A stretch of 35,203 bases of DNA from Melioribacteraceae bacterium. GTDB taxonomy: Bacteria; Bacteroidota; Ignavibacteria; Ignavibacteriales; Melioribacteraceae. This document shows, one piece after another, positions 14,121 to 33,461 of this stretch (position 1 is the stretch's first letter; each line of letters begins with the position of its first letter). The translations under genes and the position numbers were made by a program. The notes under the pieces were generated by a model that was not told the origin of the DNA, searched no databases, and saw only the letters and a list, made by a program, of their open reading frames with translations. Where the stretch lies: contig JALSTI010000250.1 in NCBI GenBank assembly GCA_026983795.1, positions 1-35,203 on the forward strand, written 5' to 3'.

Positions 14121-14178
14121 TAGATTAAAGCACTCTTTTATCTCTTTTTAGACATTCGGTCTTTTTTTTGAGGTGTTT

Positions 14179-16641
14179 ATGAATTTCATAAAGTATCCTC
14201 TTCTCTTACTCCTGCTTGGCTTTGCTCAAATTGTATTCGCTCAATCTTCATCTGACTGCCTCGAATGCCACAGCGACAATGAGTTGACTTATACGAGGCA
14301 TGGCAAAGAAATATCGTTATACATTGATTCTACAAAATTTGGAAATTCCGTTCACGGCGATTTGGATTGTACCGATTGTCATGAAGATTTTGATCCGGAA
14401 GAACTTCCGCACAAACCGGGTAAAAATATATACAAAGTCAATTGCGGTAATTGCCACGAAGATATTGCAGAACAACAAAAAACGGATATTCATCAACGGT
14501 TAAAGGACCGGATTAAACATCCGCCGACTTGCGTTACGTGCCACGGAGCTCATTATGTAAAATCTCCAAAGGATTGTAAATTACCGGCGCGCAAATATTG
14601 TTCTAAATGTCACCAAAGCAGGGTATTGCTTAGACCTTACCATTCTCAACCCAAGGTTAGTGATAAAAAGTGCACCGAGTGTCATAAAATCGATTCTTAT
14701 AAACATTCTCTTGAAAAATCAATTCACAAAGAATTACTTTGTACGGATTGTCATATATGCGTTGCAAACAAAGGGATGACGCCCGATAAATTAAAACACA
14801 AAAATGCTCCGGTAGCTAACTGTTACGTATGCCATAATAAAGAAGCGAGCGAACACAAAAAGAGTATTCATGGAATAGCGCTAAGGGAAGGCGTAGACGA
14901 AGCTGCCAAATGTTGGGACTGTCACGGCTCGCATGATATTTTACCTGTTAACAATAAAAAAAGCCCAGCTTATATTTCCAATATTGCCAATACTTGTGCA
15001 AAGTGTCACGCCGGTTCCAAATTAGAGAAAAAATTTAATTTTACGGCAAGCATGCCTGTTCAAAATTACTTGGCTTCGGTACACGGTAAACTTCAAAGCA
15101 AAGGTGATACTACGGCTGCTACATGCACTACATGCCATGGCGTTCATGATATAAAAAATGCCGCTCAACCCGGCTCAAAAATTTCACCTTACAATTTGCC
15201 TAATACATGTGAAAAATGTCATCCTAAGGAAGTTTTGAGATATAAGCAATCTATTCATTGGATATATGTTGAAAAAGGATTTAAATTCGCTCCTGTTTGC
15301 AACGATTGCCATACCGAACACGGAATTAGGAAGGTCTCAGGTAAAAATAACCGTAAGATTGCCCGGATAATGCAGCAACAAACCTGCGTTGTTTGTCATC
15401 AAAATAAAATTTTAGCAAAAAGAGTCGGACTGAAAGCAGACGAGCCATACACTTATGAAGACAGTTATCACGGTTTGGCAACATTACGTGGAGACGAAGA
15501 TGCAGCCATGTGTATCGATTGCCATAACGCACATAAAATTCTCCCTAAACAAGATCCGGAATCGTCCGTTAATGTTAAAAATGTAAAAAATACATGCAAA
15601 AAATGTCATCCGGAAGCTACGCAAGTATTTTCGGAAAGTTATTCACATCACAATATATCGGTCGCCAGCAATAAAGCGCAGGACATAGTTAATACATTTT
15701 ATTTTTGGCTAATTTTATTTACAATAGGAGGAATGTTCGTTCACAATTTAATAATTTACATTCACGATGTAATTGAAAAAAGAAAAAGGATTAAAGAGCG
15801 ACCCACAATTCCAAGATTAACCAAAAACGAAGTTATACAGCATATTATTTTATTTACATCCTTTATTATTTTGGCAATAACCGGTTTCGCATTGAAATTC
15901 TCTCAGAGTTGGTGGAGCGAAGGATTAACAAAAATAGGTTTAAACGAGCATGTACGCCAACTTGTTCACCGCACTGCCGCAGTTATATTGATATTAACGG
16001 GAATATACCATGTTATTTATTTGATTCTTACAAAACGCGGAAGATTTGTATTAAGCGCTTTAATTCCAAAGTTCAAAGACATAACACAAGCGTCACAAAA
16101 TATTGCGTATTATTTGGGACTGTCGAAATTGAAACCGGAATTTGACAAGTTCGATTATACGGAAAAGGCCGAATATTGGGCTCTGATTTGGGGAACGGTT
16201 ATTATGGGTTTAACAGGTTTTATCCTTTGGTTCCCTACAGCCGTTGGTAATTGGGCTCCTATTTGGTTAATTAAAGTTTGCCAAAGTATTCATTTTTACG
16301 AAGCTGTTCTGGCATCATTGGCTATATTAATTTGGCATTGGTTCTTTGTAATATTTCATCCAAAGGAATATCCTATGAATTTAACGTGGGTCGACGGTCA
16401 AATGTCGCTTGACGAATATAAAGAGCATCATACCGAAGACTTTAAAACAATTATAAAAGAATGGGCTGAAATAAAATCAAACAAAAAACCCGCCGACGAA
16501 ATGGGTTACGAAACCAAATTGTTCTTGGAAAACATTAAAAAACACGGAAACGATCCTGACAGGGTTTTAATAGACCAACTAAAATCCGATTTGGAATTAC
16601 GACGTTGGTTAGAAGCAAATATCGGAACTCTTAACTTATGA
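14179..16641 (+). CDS. 16-heme cytochrome c fused to cytochrome-b561-like membrane domain (CbcL-like quinone:cytochrome oxidoreductase)
   Basis: This 820-residue protein is read from ATG 14179, preceded by GAGGTG. An in-frame GTG at 14173 lies inside that ribosome site and is rejected. A signal peptide (LLLLLLGFAQIVFAQ) leads into a periplasmic region of about 480 residues with 16 CXXCH motifs (CLECH through CKKCH). Then come about five membrane helices with paired His (VHNLIIYIHDVI, LVHRTAAVILILTGIYHVIY, IHFYEAVLASLAILIWHWF), like diheme b561/formate-dehydrogenase gamma domains. A cytoplasmic tail of about 90 residues ends it. In Geobacter, CbcL joins a multiheme domain and a b561-type domain and moves electrons from menaquinol to periplasmic cytochromes in metal reduction; this protein has more hemes. 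It is the likeliest quinone outlet for the conduit encoded downstream. Confidence 0.92.
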   Translation: MNFIKYPLLLLLLGFAQIVFAQSSSDCLECHSDNELTYTRHGKEISLYIDSTKFGNSVHGDLDCTDCHEDFDPEELPHKPGKNIYKVNCGNCHEDIAEQQKTDIHQRLKDRIKHPPTCVTCHGAHYVKSPKDCKLPARKYCSKCHQSRVLLRPYHSQPKVSDKKCTECHKIDSYKHSLEKSIHKELLCTDCHICVANKGMTPDKLKHKNAPVANCYVCHNKEASEHKKSIHGIALREGVDEAAKCWDCHGSHDILPVNNKKSPAYISNIANTCAKCHAGSKLEKKFNFTASMPVQNYLASVHGKLQSKGDTTAATCTTCHGVHDIKNAAQPGSKISPYNLPNTCEKCHPKEVLRYKQSIHWIYVEKGFKFAPVCNDCHTEHGIRKVSGKNNRKIARIMQQQTCVVCHQNKILAKRVGLKADEPYTYEDSYHGLATLRGDEDAAMCIDCHNAHKILPKQDPESSVNVKNVKNTCKKCHPEATQVFSESYSHHNISVASNKAQDIVNTFYFWLILFTIGGMFVHNLIIYIHDVIEKRKRIKERPTIPRLTKNEVIQHIILFTSFIILAITGFALKFSQSWWSEGLTKIGLNEHVRQLVHRTAAVILILTGIYHVIYLILTKRGRFVLSALIPKFKDITQASQNIAYYLGLSKLKPEFDKFDYTEKAEYWALIWGTVIMGLTGFILWFPTAVGNWAPIWLIKVCQSIHFYEAVLASLAILIWHWFFVIFHPKEYPMNLTWVDGQMSLDEYKEHHTEDFKTIIKEWAEIKSNKKPADEMGYETKLFLENIKKHGNDPDRVLIDQLKSDLELRRWLEANIGTLNL

Positions 16642-17442: not shown

Positions 17443-18009
17443 ATGAAACAGAAAAGTTTTTATTTTTATTTTCTACTCCTCTTTCTACTCATAAATCCGC
17501 ATAATATCTTTCCCCAAACTTTAAATCAACATAAATACGTTGGCACAAAGGTATGTGGGAAATGCCACAAATCCGAAAAGCAAGGCAAGCAATATGTAAT
17601 ATGGAAAGAAAGTATTCACGCGCAGGCTTATAAAACTTTAGAAACCGAAAAAGCTAATAAAATTTGCAAAGAAAAAGGATTCGGCGACAAAGCCGTGGAA
17701 GCAAAAGAATGCTTGGGTTGCCATGCTTCCGGCTGGGATGTAGATAAAAAATTTATTGGGAAAAAATTTAAAATTGAAGACGGCGTACAATGCGAAACTT
17801 GCCACGGATCGGGAGGAGATTACAAGTCTCTTAAAGTAATGAAAAACCGCAAGCTGGCTATTAAAAACGGTTTGGTAGATGTTTTTGATAATACCGAACA
17901 ATTCTGCAGGAATTGTCATAACCCAGATAGTCCAACGTTCACCGGATTCAACTTTGAAGAAATGTGGGCGAAAATTGAGCACCCGGTTCCCCATAGAAAA
18001 AAGAAATAG
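17443..18009 (+). CDS. Periplasmic tetraheme cytochrome c554-like protein (second copy)
   Basis: This 188-residue paralogue of the preceding gene has a signal peptide (FYFYFLLLFLLINPHNIFPQ) and four CXXCH motifs (CGKCH, CLGCH, CETCH, CRNCH) at matching positions. Shared blocks include HKYVGTKVCGKCHKSEKQGKQY, SIHAQAYKTLETEKA, GKKFKIEDGVQCETCHG and NPDSPTFTGFNFEEMW. It is less Lys-rich than the first copy. AGGAG precedes the ATG. It lies after a terminator and only 7 bases before the outer-membrane barrel gene, so it belongs with the conduit genes and may be the shuttle dedicated to them, while the first copy is separately controlled. It arose by tandem duplication, now clearly diverged. Confidence 0.92.
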   Translation: MKQKSFYFYFLLLFLLINPHNIFPQTLNQHKYVGTKVCGKCHKSEKQGKQYVIWKESIHAQAYKTLETEKANKICKEKGFGDKAVEAKECLGCHASGWDVDKKFIGKKFKIEDGVQCETCHGSGGDYKSLKVMKNRKLAIKNGLVDVFDNTEQFCRNCHNPDSPTFTGFNFEEMWAKIEHPVPHRKKK

Positions 18010-18016: not shown

Positions 18017-19282
18017 ATGAAAAAACTTTTAGCTGTTTTTATTCTATTTACAAGCGTGTTATCAGGACAAAATTTTAACGGAAGGATTTCTTCTTCTTTT
18101 TATACTTTTAACAGGTTTAATTCGTTAACGGATTCTAAAACCTATTTAAGAAGTTATAACACGCTCAGTTTCAATCTGACTAAAAATAATGTTTCCCTGC
18201 GCACAAGATTAAATCTTGAATCCGATATTGTAAATCCTTTGGATAACGATCCACGGTTGAGATTTTATAATCTATTTATTGAAGCGCGTAAAATTTTTAA
18301 CATTGCAACAATTAAAGTCGGCAGACAACCGATTTACAACAGCGTTGCCGGCGGTTTGTTCGACGGCGTAAACCTTAAATTAAAACACAAAGGTTTTTCT
18401 TTAGTCGGTTATTACGGTGCTAACGTTCCCGCTTATCAAAAACTGGAATTAACCGACGATTGGGGAAACGATTATATTTTAGGAGGAACCATTTCCGCTA
18501 ATTTCCTTCAACATTTTCGAGTTGCCCTAAGTTATATTAATAAAAATTTTAAACCTGTTGAATATACGGCATTGCGGCTGGATGAAAATCTAAATCCTAT
18601 TCAAATTTTAATTCAAAAAAATTCTAACCAATATAAATTTGTTTCCGGCGATTTTTCCTACCGGTTGAAAAATGTTGTTAGAGTTAATACCAGGTATGAT
18701 TACGATTTGAATTTTAATACAACCTCCAAATTTTATATAAGCGCCAGATATTCCCAAATTAAGAATTTGGGTATTAGCTTATATTACAATTACCGGGAAC
18801 CGAGAATAAGATACAATTCAATTCTGTCGGTTTTTAATTTCGGAAACACTAAAGAAATAGAGGGCGGTATTGATTATAAAATAAATAATCAATTTACGGT
18901 AATTGGAAAATTCGGAAACGTTTCTTATAAAGACGATAATTCGCAACGTTTAACTTTGGGAATAAATTCTAATTTCGGGAATTTGTCGTATCGCAAAACT
19001 TTCGGATATGCCGGTGAGCTCAGCTCTATTTCCGCTTATGCGGCTCATACGTTTTTTAACGGTTTGCTGACTCCGTCAATCGGTTTAGCCTATACTAGTT
19101 ATAAACTTTCTGAAGATGCCGAAACAAATAACATAACTTCGTTACTCGGCGGAATTAACTTCAGACCTTTACGTTTATGGTCTTTTGACTTGCAAGGACA
19201 GTTTTTCAATAATAAATTTTACAAAGATGATTTTAGATTGCTCTTCAAAATAAATTATTGGTTCAATACAAATTTTAACTGA
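18017..19282 (+). CDS. Outer-membrane beta-barrel (porin-like) of a porin-cytochrome conduit
   Basis: The chosen start is ATG 18017, which gives a good signal peptide (MKKLLAVFILFTSVLSGQ). The frame extends upstream to 17879, but that would overlap the previous cytochrome gene by 131 bases. The 421-residue product is made of alternating strands rich in Tyr, Asn and Phe (for example FVSGDFSYRLKNVVRVNTRYDYDLNF, FYISARYSQIKNLGISLYYNYRE), ending in FKINYWFNTNFN, typical of an outer-membrane barrel. It sits 2 bases before a 14-heme cytochrome and just before a 7-heme lipoprotein. This barrel + periplasmic cytochrome + surface cytochrome set is the architecture of the Geobacter-type porin-cytochrome complex. 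I cannot show homology to any named barrel; the role rests on context. Confidence 0.8.
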   Translation: MKKLLAVFILFTSVLSGQNFNGRISSSFYTFNRFNSLTDSKTYLRSYNTLSFNLTKNNVSLRTRLNLESDIVNPLDNDPRLRFYNLFIEARKIFNIATIKVGRQPIYNSVAGGLFDGVNLKLKHKGFSLVGYYGANVPAYQKLELTDDWGNDYILGGTISANFLQHFRVALSYINKNFKPVEYTALRLDENLNPIQILIQKNSNQYKFVSGDFSYRLKNVVRVNTRYDYDLNFNTTSKFYISARYSQIKNLGISLYYNYREPRIRYNSILSVFNFGNTKEIEGGIDYKINNQFTVIGKFGNVSYKDDNSQRLTLGINSNFGNLSYRKTFGYAGELSSISAYAAHTFFNGLLTPSIGLAYTSYKLSEDAETNNITSLLGGINFRPLRLWSFDLQGQFFNNKFYKDDFRLLFKINYWFNTNFN

Positions 19283-19284: not shown

Positions 19285-20508
19285 ATGAAAAATTTAATAT
19301 ATCTTAAGTTTGTTTTTACCGGCGCAATTATATTTTTGGTCGTTACTGCATTTACCGGACAGCCGGGGAATAACGTTCCTGTACCACACAAAAAAATAAT
19401 TAAATTTTCACATGGTTATCATCTTCAAGAGGTCGGCGCCGATTGTGAAGATTGCCATGTAAACGTTAGAACAAGTACCGCATTAAGCGATACTTTACTA
19501 CCCACAATGGATGCATGTGGTAGTTGTCATGACGTGGAAGATGATGATGAATGCGAAACATGTCATTACGAAGATGTTTACGAACCGTTCCCCGCCGATT
19601 CAATAGAACTGAATTTTAATCATAAATTCCATCTTGAATCACAAAAATTAAATTGCGAAACTTGTCATAAAGGGCTCGATAAAGTTAATTACGGGAAAGA
19701 ATCATCAACCGTTTTTCCTGAAATGGAACAATGTGCAACTTGCCACAATAACGAATCGGTTGCCACAAACGAATGTTCAAGCTGTCATATTTCCACAGTA
19801 AACCTTTTGCCGGATACCCATAAAGAAGTGAACTTTTTGAAAAATCATAAATTTGCCGCACTGCAAGAAGATGAAAACTGCGCCATGTGCCATACAAATA
19901 ATTTTTGCGAAGACTGTCATGTTTCAACAAATAGATTGGGAGTAAAAAATACGGCATCCGATTTCTTTACTCCGTTTTCTCCGCATAAATTTTTAGATAA
20001 TACCAAACAGCAACAAATAACTACGGTTCACGATTTGAATTACCGGTTTACTCACGGAATAGATGCAAAAGGTAAAACCAAAGAGTGTCAAACATGCCAT
20101 CAAATAGAAACGTTTTGTGCAGAGTGCCACGATTCAAAAGGCGGAGATTATGCATTGGGCGGATTCACACCCACTTCGCATCTTCAACCTAATTTTACTA
20201 CAATCGGAGTCGGTTCGGGCGGAGGACTTCATGCCGAACTGGCACAACGGGATATTGAAAGCTGCGCATCGTGCCATGATACACAAGGTGCCGATCCCGC
20301 ATGTATTCTTTGCCATAACGATCCGGATGGAATAAAAGGCACAAACCCCAGAACTCATAAAGCCGATTTTATGATGGATACTCATGGAGAATGGCACGAA
20401 TCTATGGGAGCGGTATGTTTTAACTGCCATACAGATCCTAATGCCAGACCCGACGGAACTCCGGGTGTTGGATTTTGCGGTTATTGTCATGGTTCTAATC
20501 CAGATTAG
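19285..20508 (+). CDS. 14-heme c-type cytochrome (periplasmic part of conduit)
   Basis: This 407-residue protein has an N-terminal hydrophobic segment (FVFTGAIIFLVVTAFTG) serving as signal or anchor, and 14 CXXCH motifs: CEDCH, CGSCH, CETCH twice, CATCH, CSSCH, CAMCH, CEDCH, CQTCH, CAECH, CASCH, CILCH, CFNCH and CGYCH. Motifs occur mostly in pairs with intervening free His (FSHGYHL, FNHKFHL, FTHGID), which would supply distal ligands, suggesting a bis-His heme wire. It follows the barrel gene by 2 bases with almost no room for a separate ribosome site, so translation is probably coupled. By analogy with porin-cytochrome complexes it would sit within or under the barrel. Confidence 0.9.
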   Translation: MKNLIYLKFVFTGAIIFLVVTAFTGQPGNNVPVPHKKIIKFSHGYHLQEVGADCEDCHVNVRTSTALSDTLLPTMDACGSCHDVEDDDECETCHYEDVYEPFPADSIELNFNHKFHLESQKLNCETCHKGLDKVNYGKESSTVFPEMEQCATCHNNESVATNECSSCHISTVNLLPDTHKEVNFLKNHKFAALQEDENCAMCHTNNFCEDCHVSTNRLGVKNTASDFFTPFSPHKFLDNTKQQQITTVHDLNYRFTHGIDAKGKTKECQTCHQIETFCAECHDSKGGDYALGGFTPTSHLQPNFTTIGVGSGGGLHAELAQRDIESCASCHDTQGADPACILCHNDPDGIKGTNPRTHKADFMMDTHGEWHESMGAVCFNCHTDPNARPDGTPGVGFCGYCHGSNPD

Positions 20509-20532: not shown

Positions 20533-21408
20533 ATGAAATCAATTTTGTTTTACTTAATTATAATTGTGTTATTCTCATTGTATTTCTTCTCGTGCAGTGA
20601 TCTCGAAGAAAATATAACTCCGCCTCAGAACACCGTTGGAGTTCACCCTGCAAAATTTGCCGATCCGGCTTCTTCAACTTTCCACGGCAATTTAATTAAG
20701 CAAAACAATTGGGACCTTACGGAATGCAAAACATGTCATGCAAGTAATTACGAAGGAGGACTAACCGGACAGAGTTGTTTCGAATGCCATACTTCAAAAG
20801 AGGGACCGGAAGCATGTAATACTTGTCACGGAAATTTTGATAACGGTACTTTTACGGATAGTACAAGAATTGCTCCGCCCAGAGCAGTTTTTAGCGAGAA
20901 TAATGCCGGAGCGCACGTTTCGCATCTTTATGAAAACGATTTAACTGCAAATGTTAATTGCGAACAATGCCATATTGTTCCCGGAAATGTGAACGATCCC
21001 GGACATATAGTTCCCGGAGCAACCCATGCAACATTAGCATTCGGTAACTTAGCTAAAAACCAAGGTGCGAATCCCAATTACGATTTTAATACTAAAAAAT
21101 GTTCAAATGTATATTGTCATGGCAATTTTTCTTTCTTAAAAGACTCGTCAGCAAACTCTTATATTTATGTAGATTCCGTTATTGTCGGAAATAACTTTGA
21201 ACCTCAATGGAATAAATTGGATGACACTCAAGGGGAATGCGGAACTTGCCATGCTTTACCGCCAACGGGGCACCTTAATGCCGGTAACGATCCCGATGCC
21301 GCATCTTGTGCAACATGTCACTCAAGCGTTGTTGGCAGCGACGGAACCATTATTGACAGCACAAAACACATTAACGGCAAAATAAATGTTTTTGGAAAAG
21401 AGTTTTAA
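20533..21408 (+). CDS. 7-heme lipoprotein cytochrome (outer-surface part of conduit)
   Basis: This 291-residue protein has a lipoprotein-type signal (LIIIVLFSLYFFSCSDLEE, Cys at about 21). Ser and Asp after the Cys do not by themselves settle inner or outer membrane in this group. It has six CXXCH motifs (CKTCH, CFECH, CNTCH, CEQCH, CGTCH, CATCH) plus CSNVYCH, a CX4CH site. The mix of CX2CH and CX4CH, and the Gly/Asn/Pro-rich spacers, recall the Geobacter family of outer-membrane c-type lipoproteins that includes OmcB. It is 24 bases after the 14-heme gene and last in the barrel operon, so it probably forms the outward end of the conduit. Confidence 0.88.
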   Translation: MKSILFYLIIIVLFSLYFFSCSDLEENITPPQNTVGVHPAKFADPASSTFHGNLIKQNNWDLTECKTCHASNYEGGLTGQSCFECHTSKEGPEACNTCHGNFDNGTFTDSTRIAPPRAVFSENNAGAHVSHLYENDLTANVNCEQCHIVPGNVNDPGHIVPGATHATLAFGNLAKNQGANPNYDFNTKKCSNVYCHGNFSFLKDSSANSYIYVDSVIVGNNFEPQWNKLDDTQGECGTCHALPPTGHLNAGNDPDAASCATCHSSVVGSDGTIIDSTKHINGKINVFGKEF

Positions 21409-21577: not shown

Positions 21578-22909
21578 ATGCCCTTCAACAAACATTTGAA
21601 AAATGATATATTAGATTCCCTTGGCGAAGGTGTTTTTACGGTCGATAAAAGTTTCAGAATTAATTTTTTTAACAAATCCGCCGAAAGAATAACGGGCTTA
21701 AAACGCGAAGAAGTAATAGGACAATTCTGCAAACATGTATTTAATTCAAAAGTTTGTTATTCCGATTGCCCTATTGCAATTGTATTAAAATCAAAAAAAA
21801 ATCTTTATGATTTCGAATCGGAAATTCACTGCCCTACCGGTATTACCAAACCTATTAAACTAAGCGCAGCGGTTTTATACAACGGCAATAATGAACCGTT
21901 AGGCGGAGTTATTTCTTTCCGGGATATATCCGAGTTCGATAAAATAAAAAAACGGCTTGCAAAAAATACTCAGTTTCATAATATAATTGGTCACGATAAA
22001 CAAATGCAGGAAATTTATACTCTGATTCAAGATATTGCCGATTCTGATGCGCCGGTTCTGATTCACGGTGAAAGCGGGACAGGAAAAGAAATGATTGCAA
22101 ATGCAATTCAAGCTACAAGTAGTAGAAAAGACAAACCGTTTATAAAAATTAATTGTTCGGTTTTTCCCGAAAACTTATTAGCCAGCGAACTTTTCGGCCA
22201 CGTAAAAGGGGCTTTTACAGACGCGGTGAAAGATAGAATCGGCCGGTTTGAGCTTGCCGACGGCGGAACAATCTTTTTAGATGAAGTTGCAGAAATGCCA
22301 TTGCAAATGCAATTGCAACTCTTGCGGGTAATTCAGGAAGGGACATTTGAGCGTGTTGGAGAATCCATTACAAGAAAAGTTGACGTGAGAATTATTGCCG
22401 CAACTAACAGGGATATTGAGGCAGCCCTCGAAAGCGGAGAATTTAGAGAAGATTTATACTACAGATTGAGCGTAATTCCAATTTACGTTCCCCCCCTGCG
22501 CGAAAGGATGTGTGATATTGCACCTTTAACATATCACTTTCTTAATAAATTTTCTTTAATGTATAAAAAAGATATTACGGAAATTGACGACGAAGCAATG
22601 GATATAATTATGAATTACGAATGGAGGGGTAACGTAAGAGAACTTGAAAATGTTATTGAATATTCATTTGTAAGAACTCCTAACGGAGAAAAAATTACTC
22701 TAAATAAACTTCCGCTTTTAATAAGAGAACGGGTTTACAATAAGAAAAAACAAAAAAATAACTTCCTATTTAATGATCCGGAAAAAGAAAAACTTATTAG
22801 AATTTTAGAAAAACACCACTGGAATAAAAGTAAAGCAGCAAAAGAATTGGGCATAGGCAGAACAACTCTTTGGAGAAAGTTAAAACAACATAACATTTTA
22901 GAAAAATAA
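21578..22909 (+). CDS. Sigma-54-dependent transcriptional activator (PAS-AAA+-Fis), second copy
   Basis: This 443-residue paralogue of the activator at 5063-6406 has the same layout. It has an N-terminal PAS with the same three-Cys pattern (C51, C60, C64: Cx8Cx3CP). The AAA+ domain has GESGTGKE, GAFTDA and GGTIFLDEVAE. The C-terminal Fis helix-turn-helix is ELGIGRTTLWRKLKQHNIL. There is no receiver domain. The recognition helix differs from the first copy (GRTTLWRKLKQ against HRSTLWRKMKK) but is similar enough that overlapping targets are possible. It lies between the conduit operon and the TPR/octaheme genes, and a weak -24/-12 element at 23070 is the nearest candidate target. Control through the Cys-PAS domain is inference. 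Confidence 0.93.
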   Translation: MPFNKHLKNDILDSLGEGVFTVDKSFRINFFNKSAERITGLKREEVIGQFCKHVFNSKVCYSDCPIAIVLKSKKNLYDFESEIHCPTGITKPIKLSAAVLYNGNNEPLGGVISFRDISEFDKIKKRLAKNTQFHNIIGHDKQMQEIYTLIQDIADSDAPVLIHGESGTGKEMIANAIQATSSRKDKPFIKINCSVFPENLLASELFGHVKGAFTDAVKDRIGRFELADGGTIFLDEVAEMPLQMQLQLLRVIQEGTFERVGESITRKVDVRIIAATNRDIEAALESGEFREDLYYRLSVIPIYVPPLRERMCDIAPLTYHFLNKFSLMYKKDITEIDDEAMDIIMNYEWRGNVRELENVIEYSFVRTPNGEKITLNKLPLLIRERVYNKKKQKNNFLFNDPEKEKLIRILEKHHWNKSKAAKELGIGRTTLWRKLKQHNILEK

Positions 22910-23069: not shown

Positions 23070-23085
23070 TGGCAAGGTAATTGTT
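23070..23085 (+). promoter_or_regulatory. Weak sigma-54-like element before the TPR gene
   Basis: TGGCAA-GGTAA-TTGTT has a good -24 box and correct spacing, but the invariant GC at -12 is GT. Transcription would start only about 3 bases before ATG 23099. Upstream, the 22910-23069 gap holds a TGTTC/GAACA dyad (22922-22938) and TGTTTCAT (23023-23030); the latter octamer also occurs at 6413-6420 before the strong sigma-54 promoter. Confidence 0.3.
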
Positions 23086-23098
23086 TATAAGTATTATT

Positions 23099-23575
23099 AT
23101 GAATGAAATGCTTGGTAATCAATACTTTATGGCAAGAAAATATAGCGAAGCACTTTCGGTTTATGAAGAGTGCGTTCAGCAAGATAAAAGCAATAACCTT
23201 ATAATGAAAAAAATGGTTATTTGTTATACGCAAGTCGGTAAAATTCAAAAAGCAGCGGAATTATTATATAAAATTATTCAAAATAATTTGGATTTAATTT
23301 TATTTACCGATCCACTTAAAGAAGATTGCCCTTGTGATGAATTAGCGTTTAATCTGGAGACCAAATATGATAAAACACTTAAAAGTTTCGATTATTTACT
23401 GGCGCTGGGAGTTTTATGGCTTTATTGCGATTTAAATAAATCCATAGAATATTTTACCGAAGCTTTACAACTTAAACCGGATAATAAACTCATTAATTCC
23501 ATTTTAGTTATACTGACCAAAAGGAAAAAGCAAGACTCTAAACAATTTGATCATCATTCGTCTTGGCAAAATTAG
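23099..23575 (+). CDS. TPR-repeat protein
   Basis: This small protein of 158 residues is read from ATG 23099; a TTG at 23081 in frame is possible but adds only FISII-type residues. The first part, NQYFMARKYSEALSVYEECVQQDKSNNLIMKKMVICYTQVGKIQKAAELLYKII, fits one to two tetratricopeptide repeats. The second, LALGVLWLYCDLNKSIEYFTEALQLKPDNKLINSIL, is another. Between them is a short acidic CPCDE sequence. There is no signal peptide or membrane helix, so it is cytoplasmic if this start is right. TPR proteins mediate protein contacts. The gene lies 39 bases before the secreted octaheme gene and after a sigma-54 activator, so a role in that system's assembly or control is possible but unproven. Confidence 0.75.
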   Translation: MNEMLGNQYFMARKYSEALSVYEECVQQDKSNNLIMKKMVICYTQVGKIQKAAELLYKIIQNNLDLILFTDPLKEDCPCDELAFNLETKYDKTLKSFDYLLALGVLWLYCDLNKSIEYFTEALQLKPDNKLINSILVILTKRKKQDSKQFDHHSSWQN

Positions 23576-23614: not shown

Positions 23615-24994
23615 ATGAAACAAATCAAATTACTATTAATGTTGATTGCACTGTTTTCATTCAGCGGTATGCTCTATGCTCAAGCCGATTTTAGCACCAG
23701 TTTGCATAATACAAGGAACGGGAAACCGACATGGTATAATGAAACGAACGGCGGGTTTGAATCGATTACTCATGTTTCAATCGATACTTTGGGCTGCAAA
23801 CATTGCCACGGTCCAAATAACGCCGACGGTGTTCCAAACGATAGTACCTATCAACCCGGTTGTGCCGATTGTCATCCTTCCGGTTCCGCTTTTAGCCCCG
23901 ATTCAATTAAAGTTGATCAATGTTACAGTTGCCACGGCAGACAAAAAACTGTTGCTATGAAATTAAATCTTCCCGATGTTCACCGCGATGCCGGTATGAA
24001 ATGTTGGGACTGCCATGGGATGGAAGATATGCATGGCGATGGTAACGAGTATGCTTCACTATTTGATGACGGAGCTATTAAAGCCAAGTGCACAAATTGT
24101 CATATCGACGAAAACTCAACTCCGCCTTTGCCCGATCATAGTCAATATGATCCGCATAACGGAAAACTTGACTGTACTGCTTGTCACGTTCAATCGGTTG
24201 CCGCTTGCTATAATTGCCATTTTGAGAGTATGACTGAAAGTCATCTTAAAAGAGCTTACACTGTGATGAGTGACTTCGTTTTACTTGTTAACAGAGACGG
24301 AAAAGTTCACAGCGCTACTTTTCAATCTTCTACGTTTAACGGTTCGGCTTTCAATGCAATCGGTCCCGGTTCTTCTCACACAATTGGAAAAGGCAGGGAA
24401 TGCAGTGATTGCCACAATAACCCGAATGTTCAAGAATATGAAAATACCGGAGAAATTAAATTTACTACTTGGAACGATACAGACAGTACACTGAGTTGGA
24501 AACACGGTATTGTTCCGATTCCCCCCGATTATCAAACTTCTTTTAAGATGGATTTCATAACTTACAACGGTAATACAAATGATCCGCTCGGTCCGTCTAA
24601 AAACTGGTCGAAAATTGGCAAGGATTTACCCGACCTAATCCAAATGAAATATGCCTCTCCGTTAAACGAAGACCAAATAAACGCTTTGGAAACAATAGTT
24701 GACGTTAAAAAGGATGACAATACAATACCGGCAAAATTCTCATTAGAACAAAATTACCCAAACCCGTTTAACCCAACTACGGTAATAAAATATTCAATTC
24801 CAAAAACTACTAAAGTGGAATTAAATATTTATGATTTACTGGGTAACAAATTAGAAACGTTGATTAATAAAGAACAAAGTGCGGGAGTTTACAGATATCA
24901 ATTTGATGCTGGCAAATTAGCCAGCGGTGTATATTTCTATAGGTTAAAAGCCGGAGAGTTTGTCCAGACAAGAAAATTAGTCTTGATGAAATAA
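23615..24994 (+). CDS. Secreted octaheme cytochrome with type IX secretion sorting domain
   Basis: This 459-residue protein has a signal peptide (LLLMLIALFSFSGMLYAQ), then eight CXXCH motifs in about residues 60-275: CKHCH, CADCH, CYSCH, CWDCH, CTNCH, CTACH, CYNCH and CSDCH. A heme-free stretch follows. The last 85 residues (about 375-459) start FSLEQNYPNPFNPTT and end in SGVYFYRLKAGEFVQTRKLVLMK, a clear T9SS type A C-terminal sorting domain. The product should therefore cross the inner membrane by Sec, receive heme in the periplasm, and be moved to the cell surface or medium by T9SS. No substrate-binding motif is obvious; it could be a surface electron-exchange protein or a reductase. GAGG precedes the ATG, and a strong terminator follows. 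Confidence 0.93.
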   Translation: MKQIKLLLMLIALFSFSGMLYAQADFSTSLHNTRNGKPTWYNETNGGFESITHVSIDTLGCKHCHGPNNADGVPNDSTYQPGCADCHPSGSAFSPDSIKVDQCYSCHGRQKTVAMKLNLPDVHRDAGMKCWDCHGMEDMHGDGNEYASLFDDGAIKAKCTNCHIDENSTPPLPDHSQYDPHNGKLDCTACHVQSVAACYNCHFESMTESHLKRAYTVMSDFVLLVNRDGKVHSATFQSSTFNGSAFNAIGPGSSHTIGKGRECSDCHNNPNVQEYENTGEIKFTTWNDTDSTLSWKHGIVPIPPDYQTSFKMDFITYNGNTNDPLGPSKNWSKIGKDLPDLIQMKYASPLNEDQINALETIVDVKKDDNTIPAKFSLEQNYPNPFNPTTVIKYSIPKTTKVELNIYDLLGNKLETLINKEQSAGVYRYQFDAGKLASGVYFYRLKAGEFVQTRKLVLMK

Positions 24995-25032: not shown

Positions 25033-25072
25033 AAAAGCTCAACTTTGAGATAAAGTTGAGCTTTTCTTTTTC
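25033..25072. terminator. Bidirectional Rho-independent terminator
   Basis: A perfect 14-bp stem (AAAAGCTCAACTTT at 25033-25046 with AAAGTTGAGCTTTT at 25052-25065) and a 5-base loop is followed by a T-rich run on the + strand and preceded by A residues that serve the - strand. It separates the octaheme gene from the convergent sodC. Confidence 0.9.
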
Positions 25073-25827: not shown

Positions 25828-26652
25828 ATGTTATCTACAATTCATATTCTAAATTACTTGTTACCTATTTTTTACTTGGTTACGTTTTACGTTTATTATT
25901 TCGATTTTACGCATGATAAAAGTTCGTTTCACAACGCTAAAAGAATATTTCTGTTTGTTACTTTGTTTGTTCATTTAAGTTATTTATTAATAAGAACAGC
26001 CGAATTCAACCACCCTCCTATTACCAATAAATTTGAAATTTTTACAGTACTGGCTTTCACTATTGCATTCTCTTACTTTTTATTGGAATTGTTAACCGAT
26101 GTACGAGGCACCGGCCTATTTGTCATATTTTTCTCTTTGATTTTTCAAATAATATCATCCTTGTTTATTCAGGACCTACTTGAAGTTAAGGAGGTTTTAA
26201 GAAACAGAATGCTTGGGTTACACGTTGTAAGCGCTTTGTTGGGTTATTCCGGTTTTACAATTGCTGCAGTTTACGGAGTGTTATTTATGTTGCTATACAA
26301 AGATATTAAGCTTAGTAAATACGGATTGATTTTCAAAAGATTGCCCAGTTTGGAAACGCTTGAAAAGTTGAACTTTTATTCAATGATTATCGGGTTTATT
26401 TTGCTTACTTTTGCAATGATTGTAGGCTTTGTTTGGCTACCTTCGGCTTTTCCCAATTTTAGTTATTTAGACCCGAAATTGATTTTTACCTCTATTGTGT
26501 GGATAGTTTTTGGAATAGGTATTTTGTTAAAATTAATTGCAAATTGGTATGGTAAAAAGGTTATAATTTTCAGTTTGGTAGGATTTGTATTTGCAATGAT
26601 TTCGGTAGTAATTCAGAATATATTTGCTAAAACCTTCCACTCTTTTTATTAG
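25828..26652 (+). CDS. hemX: HemX/CcsA-family membrane protein
   Basis: This 274-residue integral membrane protein has about eight hydrophobic helices, belonging to the cytochrome c assembly (CcsA/CcmC/HemX) superfamily. The region where CcsA proteins carry the Trp-rich WWD heme motif reads VWLPSAFPNFSYLDPK, keeping the final Asp-Pro but lacking most tryptophans. This favours the HemX branch over a full cytochrome c synthase. In Bacillus, HemX is encoded next to hemA and lowers the level of glutamyl-tRNA reductase. Here it is directly before hemA (81-base gap) and first in the heme gene series, matching that context. A direct role in heme delivery to the many cytochromes is an alternative. 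Confidence 0.78.
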   Translation: MLSTIHILNYLLPIFYLVTFYVYYFDFTHDKSSFHNAKRIFLFVTLFVHLSYLLIRTAEFNHPPITNKFEIFTVLAFTIAFSYFLLELLTDVRGTGLFVIFFSLIFQIISSLFIQDLLEVKEVLRNRMLGLHVVSALLGYSGFTIAAVYGVLFMLLYKDIKLSKYGLIFKRLPSLETLEKLNFYSMIIGFILLTFAMIVGFVWLPSAFPNFSYLDPKLIFTSIVWIVFGIGILLKLIANWYGKKVIIFSLVGFVFAMISVVIQNIFAKTFHSFY

Positions 26653-26733
26653 CGGATAAATGAAGCGCTCGATGTTTTTAATTTATGATTTTATATGGAA
26701 AATATTATTTGACAAGATTTAAGTTAGTGTAAA

Positions 26734-28023
26734 ATGGAATTAATCGGTATTTCAATAAATCATAAGACCGCTCCGGTTCACCTTAGAGAAGAACTTCATC
26801 TTACCAAAGAAGAAATGATTGATTTAGCCGCTCATCTAAAAAAAGATCTTCTTTCGGAAGGAATTGTTTTATCAACCTGTAATAGAACCGAAATATTCGG
26901 TTTAACTCAAAACAAACAGTTAAATCATTCACAAATCATACAATCCCTAATCGATTTGAAAAAAAGTAACGAAATTACGGAGGATCATTTTTATAAGTTT
27001 TTTTCCTGTAATGCCGTTAAACATTTATTTAACGTAGCTGCCGGTATAGATTCATTAATATTAGGGGACAGTCAAATTTTAGGACAGGTAAAAGAAGCTT
27101 TTCAATTATCGGAGGATGTAAGATTTTCCGGTGCGATTATGCGCAGAATTAGTGAATATGCAATTCACGTTGGCAAAAGAGCTATAAGCGAAACTTCGAT
27201 TGGAGTTGGAGCAGTTACTGTTAGTTACGCCGCGGTTCAAGTTATTGAAAAAATATTTGCCGGGTTAAATAAAAAATCGGCGTTAATTATTGGTGCCGGT
27301 GAAACAGCCGAACTTGCCGCTATTCATCTAAAAGATAAAGGGATTGGGAAAATCAGCATTACAAACAGAAGCTTTGACAGGGGAAAAATATTAGCGGAAA
27401 AAATAAACGGTTATATGCTTAACTGGGATAATTTTAAAAACGAGTTACATAACTTCGACATAATAATAAGCGCCACTAGCTCTCCCGAATTAATAATTTA
27501 TTACGACGAAATTAAAAAAGTAATGAAAAAAAGGAAAGGATCGCCTTTGTTTATAATGGATATTGCAGTACCGAGAGATATAGACCCAAAAGTTAAAAAA
27601 CTGGATAATGTTTTTCATAACGATATTGATTCGTTGAAAGTAATAGTTAATGAAAATCTTAAAAAAAGAGAGAATGAAATTCCCGTAGTAAAAAAAATAA
27701 TTCAAGAAGAGTTAGTAAACTTTTTCAGCTGGTACAATACTCTTGAAGTGGTGCCTACAATTAAAACCGTAAGAGAATTTTTTGAAATGATTGGAAACGA
27801 CGAGCTTGTTAAAATTAAAAATAAAATTCATAAAGACGATTATCCTAAAATTGAACAAATGACTAAAAGATTAATCGGAAGAATCCTTCACAATCCAACA
27901 ATTAACCTTAGAAAATTAGCCGAATCCGGCAGGACAAAAAGCGAGGCGATAGAATATTCCGAAATTCTTAAAGAACTGTTCAATTTAACTAAAAACTCCA
28001 ACAATGGTAAGGATACTAACTAA
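26734..28023 (+). CDS. hemA: Glutamyl-tRNA reductase
   Basis: This 429-residue NADPH-dependent enzyme reduces glutamyl-tRNA to glutamate-1-semialdehyde, the first committed step of C5-pathway heme synthesis. Family signatures are visible: IGISINHKTAPVHLRE at the start, catalytic Cys in LSTCNRTEIFG, AAGIDSLILGDSQILGQVKEAF, the nucleotide-binding LIIGAGETAELAAIHL, and IMDIAVPRDIDP. The C-terminal dimerization helices are present. Length is normal for the family. Its stop codon is immediately followed by the ATG of hemC, so translation is likely coupled. The presence of this gene shows the organism uses the C5 route, not glycine-succinyl-CoA. Confidence 0.97.
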   Translation: MELIGISINHKTAPVHLREELHLTKEEMIDLAAHLKKDLLSEGIVLSTCNRTEIFGLTQNKQLNHSQIIQSLIDLKKSNEITEDHFYKFFSCNAVKHLFNVAAGIDSLILGDSQILGQVKEAFQLSEDVRFSGAIMRRISEYAIHVGKRAISETSIGVGAVTVSYAAVQVIEKIFAGLNKKSALIIGAGETAELAAIHLKDKGIGKISITNRSFDRGKILAEKINGYMLNWDNFKNELHNFDIIISATSSPELIIYYDEIKKVMKKRKGSPLFIMDIAVPRDIDPKVKKLDNVFHNDIDSLKVIVNENLKKRENEIPVVKKIIQEELVNFFSWYNTLEVVPTIKTVREFFEMIGNDELVKIKNKIHKDDYPKIEQMTKRLIGRILHNPTINLRKLAESGRTKSEAIEYSEILKELFNLTKNSNNGKDTN

Positions 28024-28977
28024 ATGGCAAATATTATTCAACCGGAAAATAAAATTATTATCGGTACACGATCGAGCGATTTAGCACTATGGCAGGCAAA
28101 TTTTATAAAAAAAGAACTGAAGAAGATATATAAAAATTTAATTGTTGAATTGAAATTAGTTAAAACTAAAGGCGATAAAATTTTGGATGTTTCCTTATCT
28201 AAAATAGGAGATAAAGGATTATTTACAAAAGAACTGGAAAAAGCACTATTAACAAATCAAATTGATATTGCCGTCCATAGCTTGAAAGACCTTCAAACGG
28301 AAATACCAAAGGGACTTAAACTAACCGCCGTAACAAAACGGCATCCGGTTGAAGATGTATTAATCTCTAGAAAAAAGGGAACGACAATTTTTGATTTACA
28401 CGAAAATGCAACCGTGGCTACCGGCTCTTTAAGAAGAAAATCACAATTAAAGCATCTTCGTCCCGATATAAATATTGTTGATTTACGGGGAAACGTTCCT
28501 ACACGGATTAAAAAATTTTTGGAGTCCGATTGGAATGCAATCATTTTAGCCAGGGCGGGAGTTGAAAGATTAAAAATGAAAAAATATATCTCCTCTATTA
28601 TACCAATTGAGTTAATGCTGCCCGCAGTGGGACAAGGTGCTCTTGGACTGGAAATAAATTCAAAGAATAAACGTGTTGAGGAATTGTTAAAACCATTGAA
28701 CGATGAAGCAACTTTTATTGCAGCAGTTACGGAACGGGAATTTCTTAAAACTTTGGAAGGCGGATGCCAAGTTCCGATTGGCGCCTATGCCCAATTAAAA
28801 TCAAACGGTCTTTATTTCGACGGATTTGTCGGCTCAATTGACGGAAGTATTACTTTTAGGAAAAAAGTACGCGGTCGCAAATCAGATGCGTCAAGAATAG
28901 GAAGATTGTTGGCAAAGGACTTGAAAAAAGCCGGCGCCGCAAAAGTTTTGGATGAAATTTATAAAACTTCGAGATAA
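28024..28977 (+). CDS. hemC: Porphobilinogen deaminase (hydroxymethylbilane synthase)
   Basis: This 317-residue enzyme joins four porphobilinogen units into hydroxymethylbilane. It begins IIIGTRSSDLALWQANFIKKEL and contains IGDKGLFTKELEKALL, DIAVHSLKDLQTEIP, ATGSLRRKSQL, DLRGNVPTRIKKF, PAVGQGALGLEI and EGGCQVPIGAYA, where the Cys carries the dipyrromethane cofactor. All regions appear complete. It directly abuts hemA and is followed 4 bases later by hemD. Confidence 0.97.
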   Translation: MANIIQPENKIIIGTRSSDLALWQANFIKKELKKIYKNLIVELKLVKTKGDKILDVSLSKIGDKGLFTKELEKALLTNQIDIAVHSLKDLQTEIPKGLKLTAVTKRHPVEDVLISRKKGTTIFDLHENATVATGSLRRKSQLKHLRPDINIVDLRGNVPTRIKKFLESDWNAIILARAGVERLKMKKYISSIIPIELMLPAVGQGALGLEINSKNKRVEELLKPLNDEATFIAAVTEREFLKTLEGGCQVPIGAYAQLKSNGLYFDGFVGSIDGSITFRKKVRGRKSDASRIGRLLAKDLKKAGAAKVLDEIYKTSR

Positions 28978-28981
28978 AAAA

Positions 28982-29767
28982 ATGAACGACGTATTAAAAA
29001 ATAAAACCGTATTAATAACCCGCTCCGCCGAAAATTCAAAAAGGGCAATCGAAAAGCTTAAAAACTGCGGCGCAAAAGTTATTCCCTTTCCTACTCTTAA
29101 AATTCAAACGCTGGAAAATCCTTATAAATTTTATGATGTCTTAAATTCTTTCGGAGAAATTAATTTTTTGGTATTTACGTCGGTTAATGCGGTTAATTCA
29201 TTTGTAGAACTTTTAAATAAAAAAAATATCGGTCTGAGTTTCGATGATTGTAAAGTTATTGCCGTAGGAAATAAAACTGCCTCAGCATGCAAAAATAATA
29301 ATATTCCTATCCATATTGTGCCGGAAAAATTTAGCGCGGAAGGTATGATTAAATATTTCGAAAATTTTAATTTAAATAAATTAAAGTTCTTTATTCCAGG
29401 TTCGGAAATTGCTAAATCCGAGTTTAAAGATTTTCTAGAATCGGCCGGAGCTACCGTTTACCAAATTCCAATATATTCGGTTAGCATTCCCGAATCCGGA
29501 TTAAATAAAGATTTTTTAAATTCTGTCAAAGTTAAAAAACCTGACATTTTTATTTTTACAAGTCCTTCTACTTTCAAAAATTATTTAAAATTGTTGGAAA
29601 TTAAGAACGCCGGAAATTATTTTAACGGAAAAACGGTCGCAGCCATAGGTCCAACAACAGCAAAAGCAATTAAAGAAGCAAACGTAACGGTGAATATAAT
29701 TCCCGGAACATTCACAATAGACGACACAGTTAACGGAATAATTAATTATTTTACTAATAGAAAATAA
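28982..29767 (+). CDS. hemD: Uroporphyrinogen-III synthase
   Basis: This 261-residue protein is read from ATG 28982 (an earlier ATG at 28952, overlapping hemC, would add 10 residues not usual for the family). It closes hydroxymethylbilane with ring inversion. The family is poorly conserved, but the two-lobe pattern is visible: KTVLITRSAENSKRAIEKLKNCGAKVIPFPTLKI, FLVFTSVNAVNSFVELL, KVIAVGNKTASACK, IFTSPSTFKNYLKLL and GKTVAAIGPTTAKAIKEANV. Position between hemC and hemE supports the call. Confidence 0.93.
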   Translation: MNDVLKNKTVLITRSAENSKRAIEKLKNCGAKVIPFPTLKIQTLENPYKFYDVLNSFGEINFLVFTSVNAVNSFVELLNKKNIGLSFDDCKVIAVGNKTASACKNNNIPIHIVPEKFSAEGMIKYFENFNLNKLKFFIPGSEIAKSEFKDFLESAGATVYQIPIYSVSIPESGLNKDFLNSVKVKKPDIFIFTSPSTFKNYLKLLEIKNAGNYFNGKTVAAIGPTTAKAIKEANVTVNIIPGTFTIDDTVNGIINYFTNRK

Positions 29768-29787
29768 TTGTTTTGCCAAGGAAAAAT

Positions 29788-30849
29788 ATGACAGAGAATT
29801 TACAAAATGATTTAATTTTGCGGGCATGCAATAAATTACCCGTCGAAAGAACTCCGGTTTGGATAATGAGACAAGCGGGTAGATATTTACCCGAATATAG
29901 AAAGGTAAGAAAGAAGGCGGATTTTTTAACAATGTGCAAAACTCCCGAACTCGCCGCCGAGGTTACGCTTCAACCCATAGAGATAATTGGTGTGGATGCC
30001 GCAATTATCTTTTCCGATATTTTGGTAATTCCTGAAGCAATGGGAATGGAATTACAAATGTTGGAGGGACAAGGTCCAAATTTCCTCAATCCTATCAGAA
30101 ATAAAACAGATTTCCGAAATCTTAAAAAAATTGATGCTGAATCTTCTCTTAAATATGTGCTGGATGCAATAAGTTTAGTAAAACGGGAACTCAATGGTAG
30201 GGTTCCGCTTATTGGTTTTTCGGGTTCACCATGGACGCTGCTAACTTACATGGTTGAAGGAAAGGGCTCTAAAAATTTTTCAAATGTTAAAAAATTAATT
30301 TTTAACGAACCCGAGTTGGCTCACGAAATCCTTGATTTTATTGCCGATGCCGTCACTAATTATCTTTCTGCTCAAATTGAAAGCGGTGTTAACCTCGTTC
30401 AAATATTTGATACTTGGGGCGGAATTTTATCCCCTTCGCATTTCGAGGAATTTTCTCTCCGGTATATATCGCACGTTATTCAAAAGTTAAAAAGAGACGG
30501 ACAACCGGTTATTTTATTTGCCAAAGGTATGCATGATTTTGTTAAACTTGCAAATTCCGGAGCCGATGTTATAAGTGTTGATTGGACGGTGAATATAGGC
30601 GAGGTTAGAAAAATAACCGGCAGTAAAGTTGCATTACAAGGTAATTTGGACCCGGCAGTTTTATACGCAAACTTCAGTACAATTGAAACCGAAACCGAAA
30701 AGGTATTAAGATCGTACGGTTATGGTAGCGGACATATATTTAATTTGGGTCACGGTATTTTGCCCGATGTTAATCCCGAAAACGCAAAATTTTTAGTAGA
30801 TTATATTAAAAACAATAGTTCAAAATATCATAAAGAAATTGAAATTTAA
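29788..30849 (+). CDS. hemE: Uroporphyrinogen decarboxylase
   Basis: This 353-residue enzyme converts uroporphyrinogen III to coproporphyrinogen III. The start at ATG 29788 is supported by AAGGAAA just upstream; an in-frame TTG at 29773 would place that ribosome site inside the gene. Signatures include RTPVWIMRQAGRYLPEYRKVR, AAIIFSDILVIPEAMGM, GFSGSPWTLLTYMVEG, LVQIFDTWGGILSP, LQGNLDPAVLYA and FNLGHGILPDVNPENA. All catalytic regions (including the Asp in FSDIL) appear intact. Confidence 0.97.
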   Translation: MTENLQNDLILRACNKLPVERTPVWIMRQAGRYLPEYRKVRKKADFLTMCKTPELAAEVTLQPIEIIGVDAAIIFSDILVIPEAMGMELQMLEGQGPNFLNPIRNKTDFRNLKKIDAESSLKYVLDAISLVKRELNGRVPLIGFSGSPWTLLTYMVEGKGSKNFSNVKKLIFNEPELAHEILDFIADAVTNYLSAQIESGVNLVQIFDTWGGILSPSHFEEFSLRYISHVIQKLKRDGQPVILFAKGMHDFVKLANSGADVISVDWTVNIGEVRKITGSKVALQGNLDPAVLYANFSTIETETEKVLRSYGYGSGHIFNLGHGILPDVNPENAKFLVDYIKNNSSKYHKEIEI

Positions 30850-30864
30850 CCGGAAGGAATTAAA

Positions 30865-32241
30865 ATGTTTGAAATAGATATTGACTTAGTAAAAAAATAC
30901 GACAGACCCGGACCGAGATATACAAGTTATCCCACCGCGCCGCATTTTACCGAAGAATTTACGGCTGAAAATTTTCTGGAAGAAATAATCAAAACCAACA
31001 ATGTAAAAAACAAGCGTGATTTATCTTTGTATTTCCATATTCCGTTTTGCGATACTCTTTGCTATTTCTGCGGCTGCAACATGATTGTTTCACGAAACAG
31101 AGACAGAATAAAAGATTATTTAAAATATATAAAAAACGAAATCGATCTTGTAAGGTCTTATATTCTTAAAGACCGGCAAGTAGCCCAGCTACATTGGGGC
31201 GGAGGCACTCCTACTCATCTCAACCCCGGTGAAATTAACGAACTGATTTCATATATCAATAGTAATTTTAATATTAAACCCGATGCGGAAATCAGTAGTG
31301 AAATCGATCCCCGTGAACTAACAAAACAACATATAGAAGCCCTTAGAAACGGCGGTTTTAATCGCATTAGTATGGGCGTTCAAGACTTTAACGAAAAAGT
31401 TCAAAAAGCGGTAAACAGAATTCAACCGGAAGAGTTAACGCGTCAAGTAGTCGATTGGATAAGAGAATTAAATTTTCAAAGTATTAACCTGGATCTGATG
31501 TACGGTCTCCCCTTCCAAACTGTTGAATCATTTGAAAAAACAGTCGAAACAATTATTGATATTTCTCCTGACAGAATAGCGTTGTTTAATTACGCTCACG
31601 TACCGTGGATGAAAAAGCACATGGGTTTAATACATGCCGAAGACTTGCCTTCTCCCGAAGAAAAATTAAATATTCTTAAAATGTCGATCGAAAAATTAAC
31701 TTCCTCGGGTTATGAATTTATCGGGATGGATCACTTTGCAAAACCGGATGACGAGTTAACAATTGCGTTAAAAGAGAAAAAACTTTATAGAAATTTTCAA
31801 GGTTACAGCACCAACGCCGGAACGGATTTGTATGCAATGGGAATTACCAGTATCAGTCAACTGGAAAGAGTTTATGCCCAAAATCAAAAAAACGAAAAAG
31901 ATTATTTTACAGCTTTGGACGAAGGTAAGCTTCCTACTCTTAAAGGGTATTACCTCTCGAATGATGATATGCTAAGACGTGATGTAATTATGCGAATTAT
32001 GTGCGATTTTGAACTCGAGTTTAAAAAAATCGAAGAGAAATATAAAATCGATTTTCGAAAATATTTCTTTTACGGATTGCAAAATTTGAAAGAATTTGTT
32101 GACGACGGACTTGTAATTTATGAAAACGACAAAATTAAAGTTACCGAAATGGGAAGATTACTTATTAGAAATATAGCAATGAACTTCGACGGATTTATTG
32201 AGCGTAATGAAGATAAAGCAAAATATTCACGTACGGTTTAA
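30865..32241 (+). CDS. hemN: Oxygen-independent coproporphyrinogen III dehydrogenase (radical SAM)
   Basis: This 458-residue enzyme oxidatively decarboxylates coproporphyrinogen III without oxygen. It starts with the HemN-specific KYDRPGPRYTSYPTAPHF and has the radical-SAM cluster motif in YFHIPFCDTLCYFCGCN, with the extra Cys typical of HemN. GGGTPTHL, SSEIDPRELT, RISMGVQDF and NLDLMYGLPFQT follow. A C-terminal HemN domain (DMLRRDVIMRIMCDFELEF) is present, which separates it from HemW. An AAGGAA ribosome site precedes the ATG. The last 4 bases overlap the tail of the ATP-grasp gene on the opposite strand. It points to anaerobic or facultative growth. Confidence 0.96.
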   Translation: MFEIDIDLVKKYDRPGPRYTSYPTAPHFTEEFTAENFLEEIIKTNNVKNKRDLSLYFHIPFCDTLCYFCGCNMIVSRNRDRIKDYLKYIKNEIDLVRSYILKDRQVAQLHWGGGTPTHLNPGEINELISYINSNFNIKPDAEISSEIDPRELTKQHIEALRNGGFNRISMGVQDFNEKVQKAVNRIQPEELTRQVVDWIRELNFQSINLDLMYGLPFQTVESFEKTVETIIDISPDRIALFNYAHVPWMKKHMGLIHAEDLPSPEEKLNILKMSIEKLTSSGYEFIGMDHFAKPDDELTIALKEKKLYRNFQGYSTNAGTDLYAMGITSISQLERVYAQNQKNEKDYFTALDEGKLPTLKGYYLSNDDMLRRDVIMRIMCDFELEFKKIEEKYKIDFRKYFFYGLQNLKEFVDDGLVIYENDKIKVTEMGRLLIRNIAMNFDGFIERNEDKAKYSRTV

Positions 32242-33446
32242 TCGAACGGCGTATCTTTCATAGGTTGGCTTGTAAAAAAATCATCGTAAAACCTTTTTGT
32301 GTATTTTTCCAATAATTCGTTTATTCTTTTTTTGGCAGGGGAAGCGATAATTAAACCCGCGTGGTATTTTTTCTTCAATTTCCATACTACTTCCTTATCG
32401 TTATAGTTAGAAAGATCCGGCCATTCTTGTTTGGATAAGGAGGTGAGTATTGCGGCATACTTTCTGTTAACTTCCGGAAGTTTATATTCCCCTTCGCTCT
32501 TTAGTATCTCAATTTTTGCCCATTCCGACCATAAATTAATTCCCGTTGCGGCTTTAACCAATTCCGATAAATTTGCTCCTCCCACTCTTGCCGATGTTTC
32601 AAGGAAATAATATTCACCGTTATTTTTGGCTTTAATGAATTCGGTATGACTGACTCCGTGTTTCAAACCCAAAGCTTCAATAACTTTTTTATTGAACTTG
32701 CTTAAATCTTTAGCCTCATCTTCATCCGGATGTAAAGTTCTACTGGAAAAAACACGTCCTTTATGCGCAACTTCCATCGGCGGTAATCCGTATTTACTTA
32801 CACAATCGAACATTATATTTTTGTTATGAATGATTGAATCCACATGATAAACATTCCCTTCCACAAATTTTTCTATCAAATAAAAAGATTGTTCATCGCC
32901 TAATTCAACCAATAATTTCCAGAATTCATCGGGATTTAATATTTTTCTCACTCCAATCGCGCCCGCTTGCATTCGAGGCTTAACAATATAGGGCGGTTCA
33001 ACAGAATCAAAATATTCATTAATTGTATCATAATTAAGAATACCGGCAAACGGCGGAACGCGTAAACCAACTTCTTGCGCACGGCTTCGCATTGCTAATT
33101 TATCTCTAAAATATCTGGCAGTTGTATCGCCCATGCCTCCTAATCTTAAATGTTCTCTTAAAGCCGCAGCTTTTTCCACATCAAAATCGTCCAATGCAAC
33201 AATCCGGTCTATTTTTTCTTTTCTTGCTAAAAAACTAACTCCGTAAATAACATCTTTCATATTCCATTGTTTTTGATTATCCGGGATGTAAAAAATTTCA
33301 TCGATGCTTTCCCGCGGCCAATCTGCATCTTCCAGACTTTTGGAAGTAAGCAGAATAACTCTGCAGCCCTCTTTTTTACAACGTATTAAAAAATCGTCTC
33401 CCTTTTTGTAACTTGCAATACACAGGAAAGTCAATGGATTATTCAT
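32238..33446 (-). CDS. ATP-grasp family ligase of unknown substrate
   Basis: This 402-residue protein has ATP-grasp features. An N-terminal Rossmann-like preATP-grasp region reads FLCIASYKKGDDFLIRCKKEGCRVILLTS. The ATP-binding segment is PPYIVKPRMQAGAIGVRKI, followed by FYLIEKFVEGNVYHVDSII and the magnesium-binding FLETSARVGGANLSELV. The arrangement is like carbamoyl-phosphate/biotin carboxylase-like and amino-acid ligase ATP-grasps that join a carboxylate to an amine, but I cannot name the substrates. It lies on the opposite strand between hemN and hemH and shares its stop region with hemN, so it interrupts an otherwise one-direction heme series. Its promoter lies in the 33447-33597 gap shared with hemH. 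Confidence 0.85.
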   Translation of the reverse strand: MNNPLTFLCIASYKKGDDFLIRCKKEGCRVILLTSKSLEDADWPRESIDEIFYIPDNQKQWNMKDVIYGVSFLARKEKIDRIVALDDFDVEKAAALREHLRLGGMGDTTARYFRDKLAMRSRAQEVGLRVPPFAGILNYDTINEYFDSVEPPYIVKPRMQAGAIGVRKILNPDEFWKLLVELGDEQSFYLIEKFVEGNVYHVDSIIHNKNIMFDCVSKYGLPPMEVAHKGRVFSSRTLHPDEDEAKDLSKFNKKVIEALGLKHGVSHTEFIKAKNNGEYYFLETSARVGGANLSELVKAATGINLWSEWAKIEILKSEGEYKLPEVNRKYAAILTSLSKQEWPDLSNYNDKEVVWKLKKKYHAGLIIASPAKKRINELLEKYTKRFYDDFFTSQPMKDTPFD

Positions 33447-33461
33447 TTTTTTCCTCTTCTC

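Follow-up and report, generated by a model that had tools for sequence, protein, structure and literature searches.

An octaheme cytochrome gene and its surroundings

The window analysed here is a stretch of 35,203 nucleotides from an uncultured Melioribacteraceae bacterium, and on its + strand, at 23615..24994, lies a gene for an octaheme c-type cytochrome that ends in a T9SS type A sorting domain. The open reading frame starts with ATG, is unbroken and encodes 459 aa. Its N-terminus, MKQIKLLLMLIALFSFSGMLYAQ-A (23615..23683, +), was judged by eye from the translation to be signal-peptide-like and contains no lipobox cysteine, so that the protein appears to have the Sec signal of a T9SS type A substrate. 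A motif scan placed CXXCH heme motifs at residues 61, 83, 103, 130, 159, 187, 198 and 263 (residues 61–267; 23795..24415, +), eight in all, compared with a mean of 0.02 and a maximum of 2 in 20,000 shuffles of the same protein. The Pfam families Cytochrome_C7 and Cytochrom_c3_2 both scored above cut-off in this part. Eight heme motifs behind a signal peptide, conserved in 45 modules, mark the product as a multiheme c-type cytochrome.

The sorting domain occupies residues 381–456 (24755..24982, +) and matched both TIGR04183 (NCBIfam, 45.4 bits against a cut-off of 23) and PF18962 (Pfam, 40.4 against 27), which gives the protein the C-terminal type A domain of a T9SS substrate. AlphaFold predicted an all-beta domain there (pLDDT about 71–91), and Foldseek matched the model to the tails of T9SS substrates (8gl6, 8glk, 8qb1), to PorZ (5m11) and also to other Ig-like domains. 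The preliminary description of this DNA had read eight CXXCH motifs ahead of a type A sorting domain in one intact frame; the continuous frame and the scores above cut-off establish this anatomy.

The octaheme gene is the last of a unit that begins, on the + strand, with the gene for a PAS/AAA sigma-54 activator (21578..22909), a conserved neighbour. There follow a sigma-54-like −24/−12 site, TGGCAAGGTAATTGTT (23070..23085, one mismatch in the GC element), the gene for a small TPR protein, a conserved partner directly 5′ of the octaheme gene (23099..23575, start codon set by locus comparison), the octaheme gene itself and, 3′ of it, a terminator-like hairpin of 15 pairs and a T run (25033..25065). 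Sigma-54-like sites in the window alone were no more frequent than expected by chance in single-base shuffles, with weights chosen from the consensus, and the GC element is degenerate in the genus of the source organism; the evidence for the site is therefore its conserved position: in 10 of 11 loci such a site lies about 13–14 bases 5′ of the TPR start. The order activator–TPR–octaheme was kept in relatives with and without a porin/lipoprotein-cytochrome cluster in the fetched flanks, and conservation of the operon is thereby established. Between the site and the TPR start codon (23085–23099) there is so little room that a transcript would have hardly any leader, a spacing that relatives share. 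A second sigma-54-like site, TGGTCCGCTATTTGCT (6534–6549, one mismatch, not above chance when taken alone), sits between a sigma-54 activator gene and a NifX-like/FeS/NrfD/multiheme operon.

Just upstream of this unit, also on the + strand, are genes for a cytochrome c554-like tetraheme protein (17443..18009), a porin-like outer membrane barrel (18017..19282), a cytochrome with 14 CXXCH motifs and no lipobox (19285..20508) and a lipobox-bearing multiheme cytochrome with 6–7 motifs (20533..21408, lipobox FFSC by eye). The model of the porin-like protein is all-beta and of low confidence (mean pLDDT 51.7), and its Foldseek matches are outer membrane barrels. With that caution on the barrel, the gene content (porin, non-lipobox cytochrome, lipoprotein cytochrome) fits a porin-cytochrome conduit, a kind of complex already reported in Ignavibacteria (PMC7399161). 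The lipoprotein/porin cytochromes and the tailed octaheme protein do lie side by side, as had been noted before.

Several other genes of the window bear on heme proteins or signalling. Directly 3′ of the cytochrome genes, a heme-biosynthesis cluster (25828–34569) encodes a cytochrome c assembly/HemX-like protein, hemA, hemC, hemD, hemE, a HemN-like protein and ferrochelatase. A 16-CXXCH region is fused in one chain to a cytochrome b561-type membrane domain (14173–16641). Two adjoining response regulators (12086–12898 and 12918–14072) each contain a fused glycine-cleavage-H-like (GCV_H) domain. The putative periplasmic sensor region of the histidine kinase beside them (10205–12079) contains one CXXCH and one CX4CH-like motif, and the kinase is possibly a heme-based redox sensor.

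Distribution of the module and its tail

For comparison across genomes we used the octaheme module of about 350 aa as the unit. A sequence search of 97 near genomes found relatives of the heme part in 14, counting the genome of origin, and a profile search of the class (391 genomes) gave matches in 43, of which a few were only distant and partial. In a sample of 395 genomes from the phylum, a profile search returned relatives in 8, one of which belongs to another class and has the tail too. When 45 full modules were aligned, all eight heme motifs were invariant as CX2-4CH. Proteins holding 39 of these modules end in a sorting domain (3 of the 39 labels were assigned by eye, the tail pattern having missed them), and one or two changes suffice to account for the tail label on the tree of the modules. 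Retention of the tail in the family is thereby established. A KSB1 homologue likewise carries the tail, with SprA in its genome.

Some relatives contain the module in tandem: two modules, and thus 16 hemes, in two members of the source organism's genus, and three modules, 24 hemes, in another genus. Each of these chains bears a single tail, at its C-terminus. The window module is 79% identical to the first module of a sister species' tandem protein and 62% to the second, and the window linker and tail resemble the end of that protein (64%), so the window gene fits the loss of a second module. The KSB1 homologue (L042 5605–8415) has an octaheme module, then a second heme region of another kind and finally a T9SS tail, with 16 motifs in one chain. 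Elsewhere, in a Bacteroidetes MAG, one ORF of 726 aa contains 28 CXXCH motifs (L046 5601–7779) and an adjoining ORF of 537 aa contains 20.

T9SS genes and further tailed cytochromes in the genome

The source genome is a draft assembly of 3.35 Mb in 312 contigs, 95% complete. A profile search of it found SprA, the PorU sortase and PorV, all above curated cut-offs, together with about 90 sorting-domain matches. Translocon, shuttle and sortase are thus present alongside the candidate substrate, and the lack of T9SS machinery, which the preliminary description had named as the finding that would count against export, does not apply. That description had also called for a search for other multiheme proteins with the sorting domain. 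We counted heme motifs in the DNA of the other tail proteins of the genome (72 stretches) and found two more tailed multiheme proteins, one of 669 aa with 7–8 motifs (contig C289) and one of 582 aa with 9 motifs (contig C67). The tail was present in all 11 and all 12 sequences found for their respective families, own genome counted in. Thus, three cytochrome families with T9SS tails occur in one genome.

A proposed route to the cell exterior

What would the octaheme protein do with such a tail? We propose, with a probability of roughly 0.7, that it is a T9SS-exported cytochrome, at the surface or released, that serves in extracellular electron transfer; for this protein we infer heme loading, export, surface location, an electron partner and sigma-54 control. 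Co-expressed with the TPR protein under the sigma-54 activator, it would cross the inner membrane by Sec, gain its hemes and fold in the periplasm. With the type A tail as its address, it would next pass the outer membrane by way of the T9SS, after which PorU would cut off the tail and leave the cytochrome surface-held or released. Outside, it would take part in extracellular electron transfer, a role suggested by its heme content and neighbours, with electrons coming probably from the adjacent porin-cytochrome conduit, which may feed a T9SS cytochrome that needs an electron source. This partner is uncertain, because octaheme units at five loci (L040, L162, L163, L164 and L168) had no porin-cytochrome cluster in the fetched flanks.

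The passage of a folded, heme-loaded protein through the T9SS pore had been presented as a puzzle. It is weaker than stated: according to reviews, T9SS substrates fold before they leave the periplasm, traverse the outer membrane in that state by way of the 36-strand SprA barrel and, once PorU has processed them, are anchored or released (PMC9251779, PMC10202324). A system known to move folded proteins makes a folded heme protein no paradox, and passage of a heme-loaded cytochrome through SprA would be compatible with the known scheme. As for the separate T9SS route for cytochromes suggested at the outset, its supports hold (tail, machinery, tail conservation and the adjoining lipoprotein/porin cytochromes); actual export, a surface location and independence from the adjoining conduit are its hypothetical parts.

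The octaheme protein resembles T9SS type A substrates in its Sec signal, its C-terminal type A domain and the SprA, PorU and PorV of its genome, and differs in its cargo, a multiheme c-type cytochrome; the word cytochrome is absent from a 2023 review of T9SS effectors (PMC10202324). With porin-cytochrome complexes of the Geobacter and Shewanella types it would share a multiheme cytochrome presumed at the outer surface. In contrast to them, a T9SS tail replaces the lipoprotein signal, and its own placement would need no porin.

Surface cytochromes are usually sought through lipoprotein signals and adjacent porins. Because relatives in the class and beyond keep the tail, bacteria of the Ignavibacteria class probably have a second way, besides the lipoprotein/porin route, of bringing some electron-transfer proteins to the cell exterior. 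We also entertain, at slightly less than even odds, a wider T9SS-dependent branch of extracellular electron transfer in this class and its relatives, in which several multiheme families, some of them 16–24-heme tandems, would pass heme-loaded through SprA and form a conduit-fed surface layer. If T9SS tails do mark another set of surface cytochromes, surveys of electroactive bacteria overlook a share of the outer-surface inventory in Bacteroidota and Ignavibacteria, and the T9SS would be seen to carry large cofactor-loaded proteins. Within the open-access literature searched, we found no paper that treats the T9SS and multiheme cytochromes jointly. Among open-access papers with both T9SS and c-type cytochrome, one was unrelated and the others appear to deal with a methanotroph secretome and with Riemerella. 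In the 2013 Melioribacter genome paper, carbohydrate-active enzymes are the only proteins for which the sorting domain is mentioned.

Alternatively, the protein could be exported by the T9SS and yet act mainly as an enzyme, with one or two hemes that lack a distal histidine forming a catalytic site for an extracellular substrate, soluble or mineral, that it would reduce or oxidise. Several features of the 45 modules point this way: (i) only five non-motif histidines are invariant (31, 123, 140, 181 and 255), a sixth near 176 aligning poorly; (ii) the eight hemes are matched by 6 non-motif histidines in one module and by 7 in ten, so that in some members one or two hemes may lack bis-His coordination and a catalytic role is possible; and (iii) Y41, K230 and W331 are invariant. 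In addition, the best PDB profile match is an octaheme enzyme, the sulfite reductase MccA (4rkm). However, 11 non-motif histidines are available in the window protein, and the similarity to MccA is weak and local (26 bits, profile residues 95–175), covering a fraction of the module, whereas MccA has 732 aa, differs overall and has no tail. Moreover, an AlphaFold model built with 13 sequences had pLDDT mostly below 50 in the heme region, too low for inferring heme geometry or ligands. We regard a mainly enzymatic function as unlikely.

Other known cytochromes matched in part or not at all. The small tetraheme cytochrome c/CctA (1m1p) aligns with residues 80–157 (E 4.6e-5) and, unlike the octaheme protein, has half of the hemes only, is periplasmic and lacks a tail. 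ExtM, ExtN and ExtO of selenite/tellurite reduction operons (NF040943, NF040967, NF040968) gave weak local matches of 27–32 bits, far under their curated cut-offs of 200–800 bits. At E 0.01 the window protein had no match to the tetrathionate-reductase-type octaheme family (TIGR04315) or to the OmcA/MtrC decaheme family (TIGR03507). A Myxococcota homologue scored 19 bits against TIGR04315, whose cut-off is 375.

Could the tail instead be vestigial or otherwise used, and the cytochrome periplasmic? Five homologues in the class (L029 and L149–L152) are tail-less in genomes that have SprA, indicating that the module is not bound to the T9SS and can serve without it. Yet 39 of the 45 modules keep the tail, which still scores well above the family cut-off, and the Myxococcota homologue, whose genome gave no SprA match, lacks one: in its place stand a cysteine in a lipobox-like context and an extended spacer rich in Asp, Pro and Gly, so that this homologue looks like a lipoprotein. 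A periplasmic location thus appears very improbable. That the fusion of heme part and tail is a chance event or an artefact of a draft assembly in so many contigs is ruled out, since dozens of independent genomes, single-contig ones among them, contain the identical arrangement.

Beside the exported octaheme cytochrome proposed here, an 11-heme family occupies the same kind of locus in several other genera and shares about 150–290 residues with the octaheme module. All five members read have a lipobox, as judged by eye, among them the proteins at L156 7472–8938, L158 5722–7134, L159 7676–9163 and L161 4571–6082.
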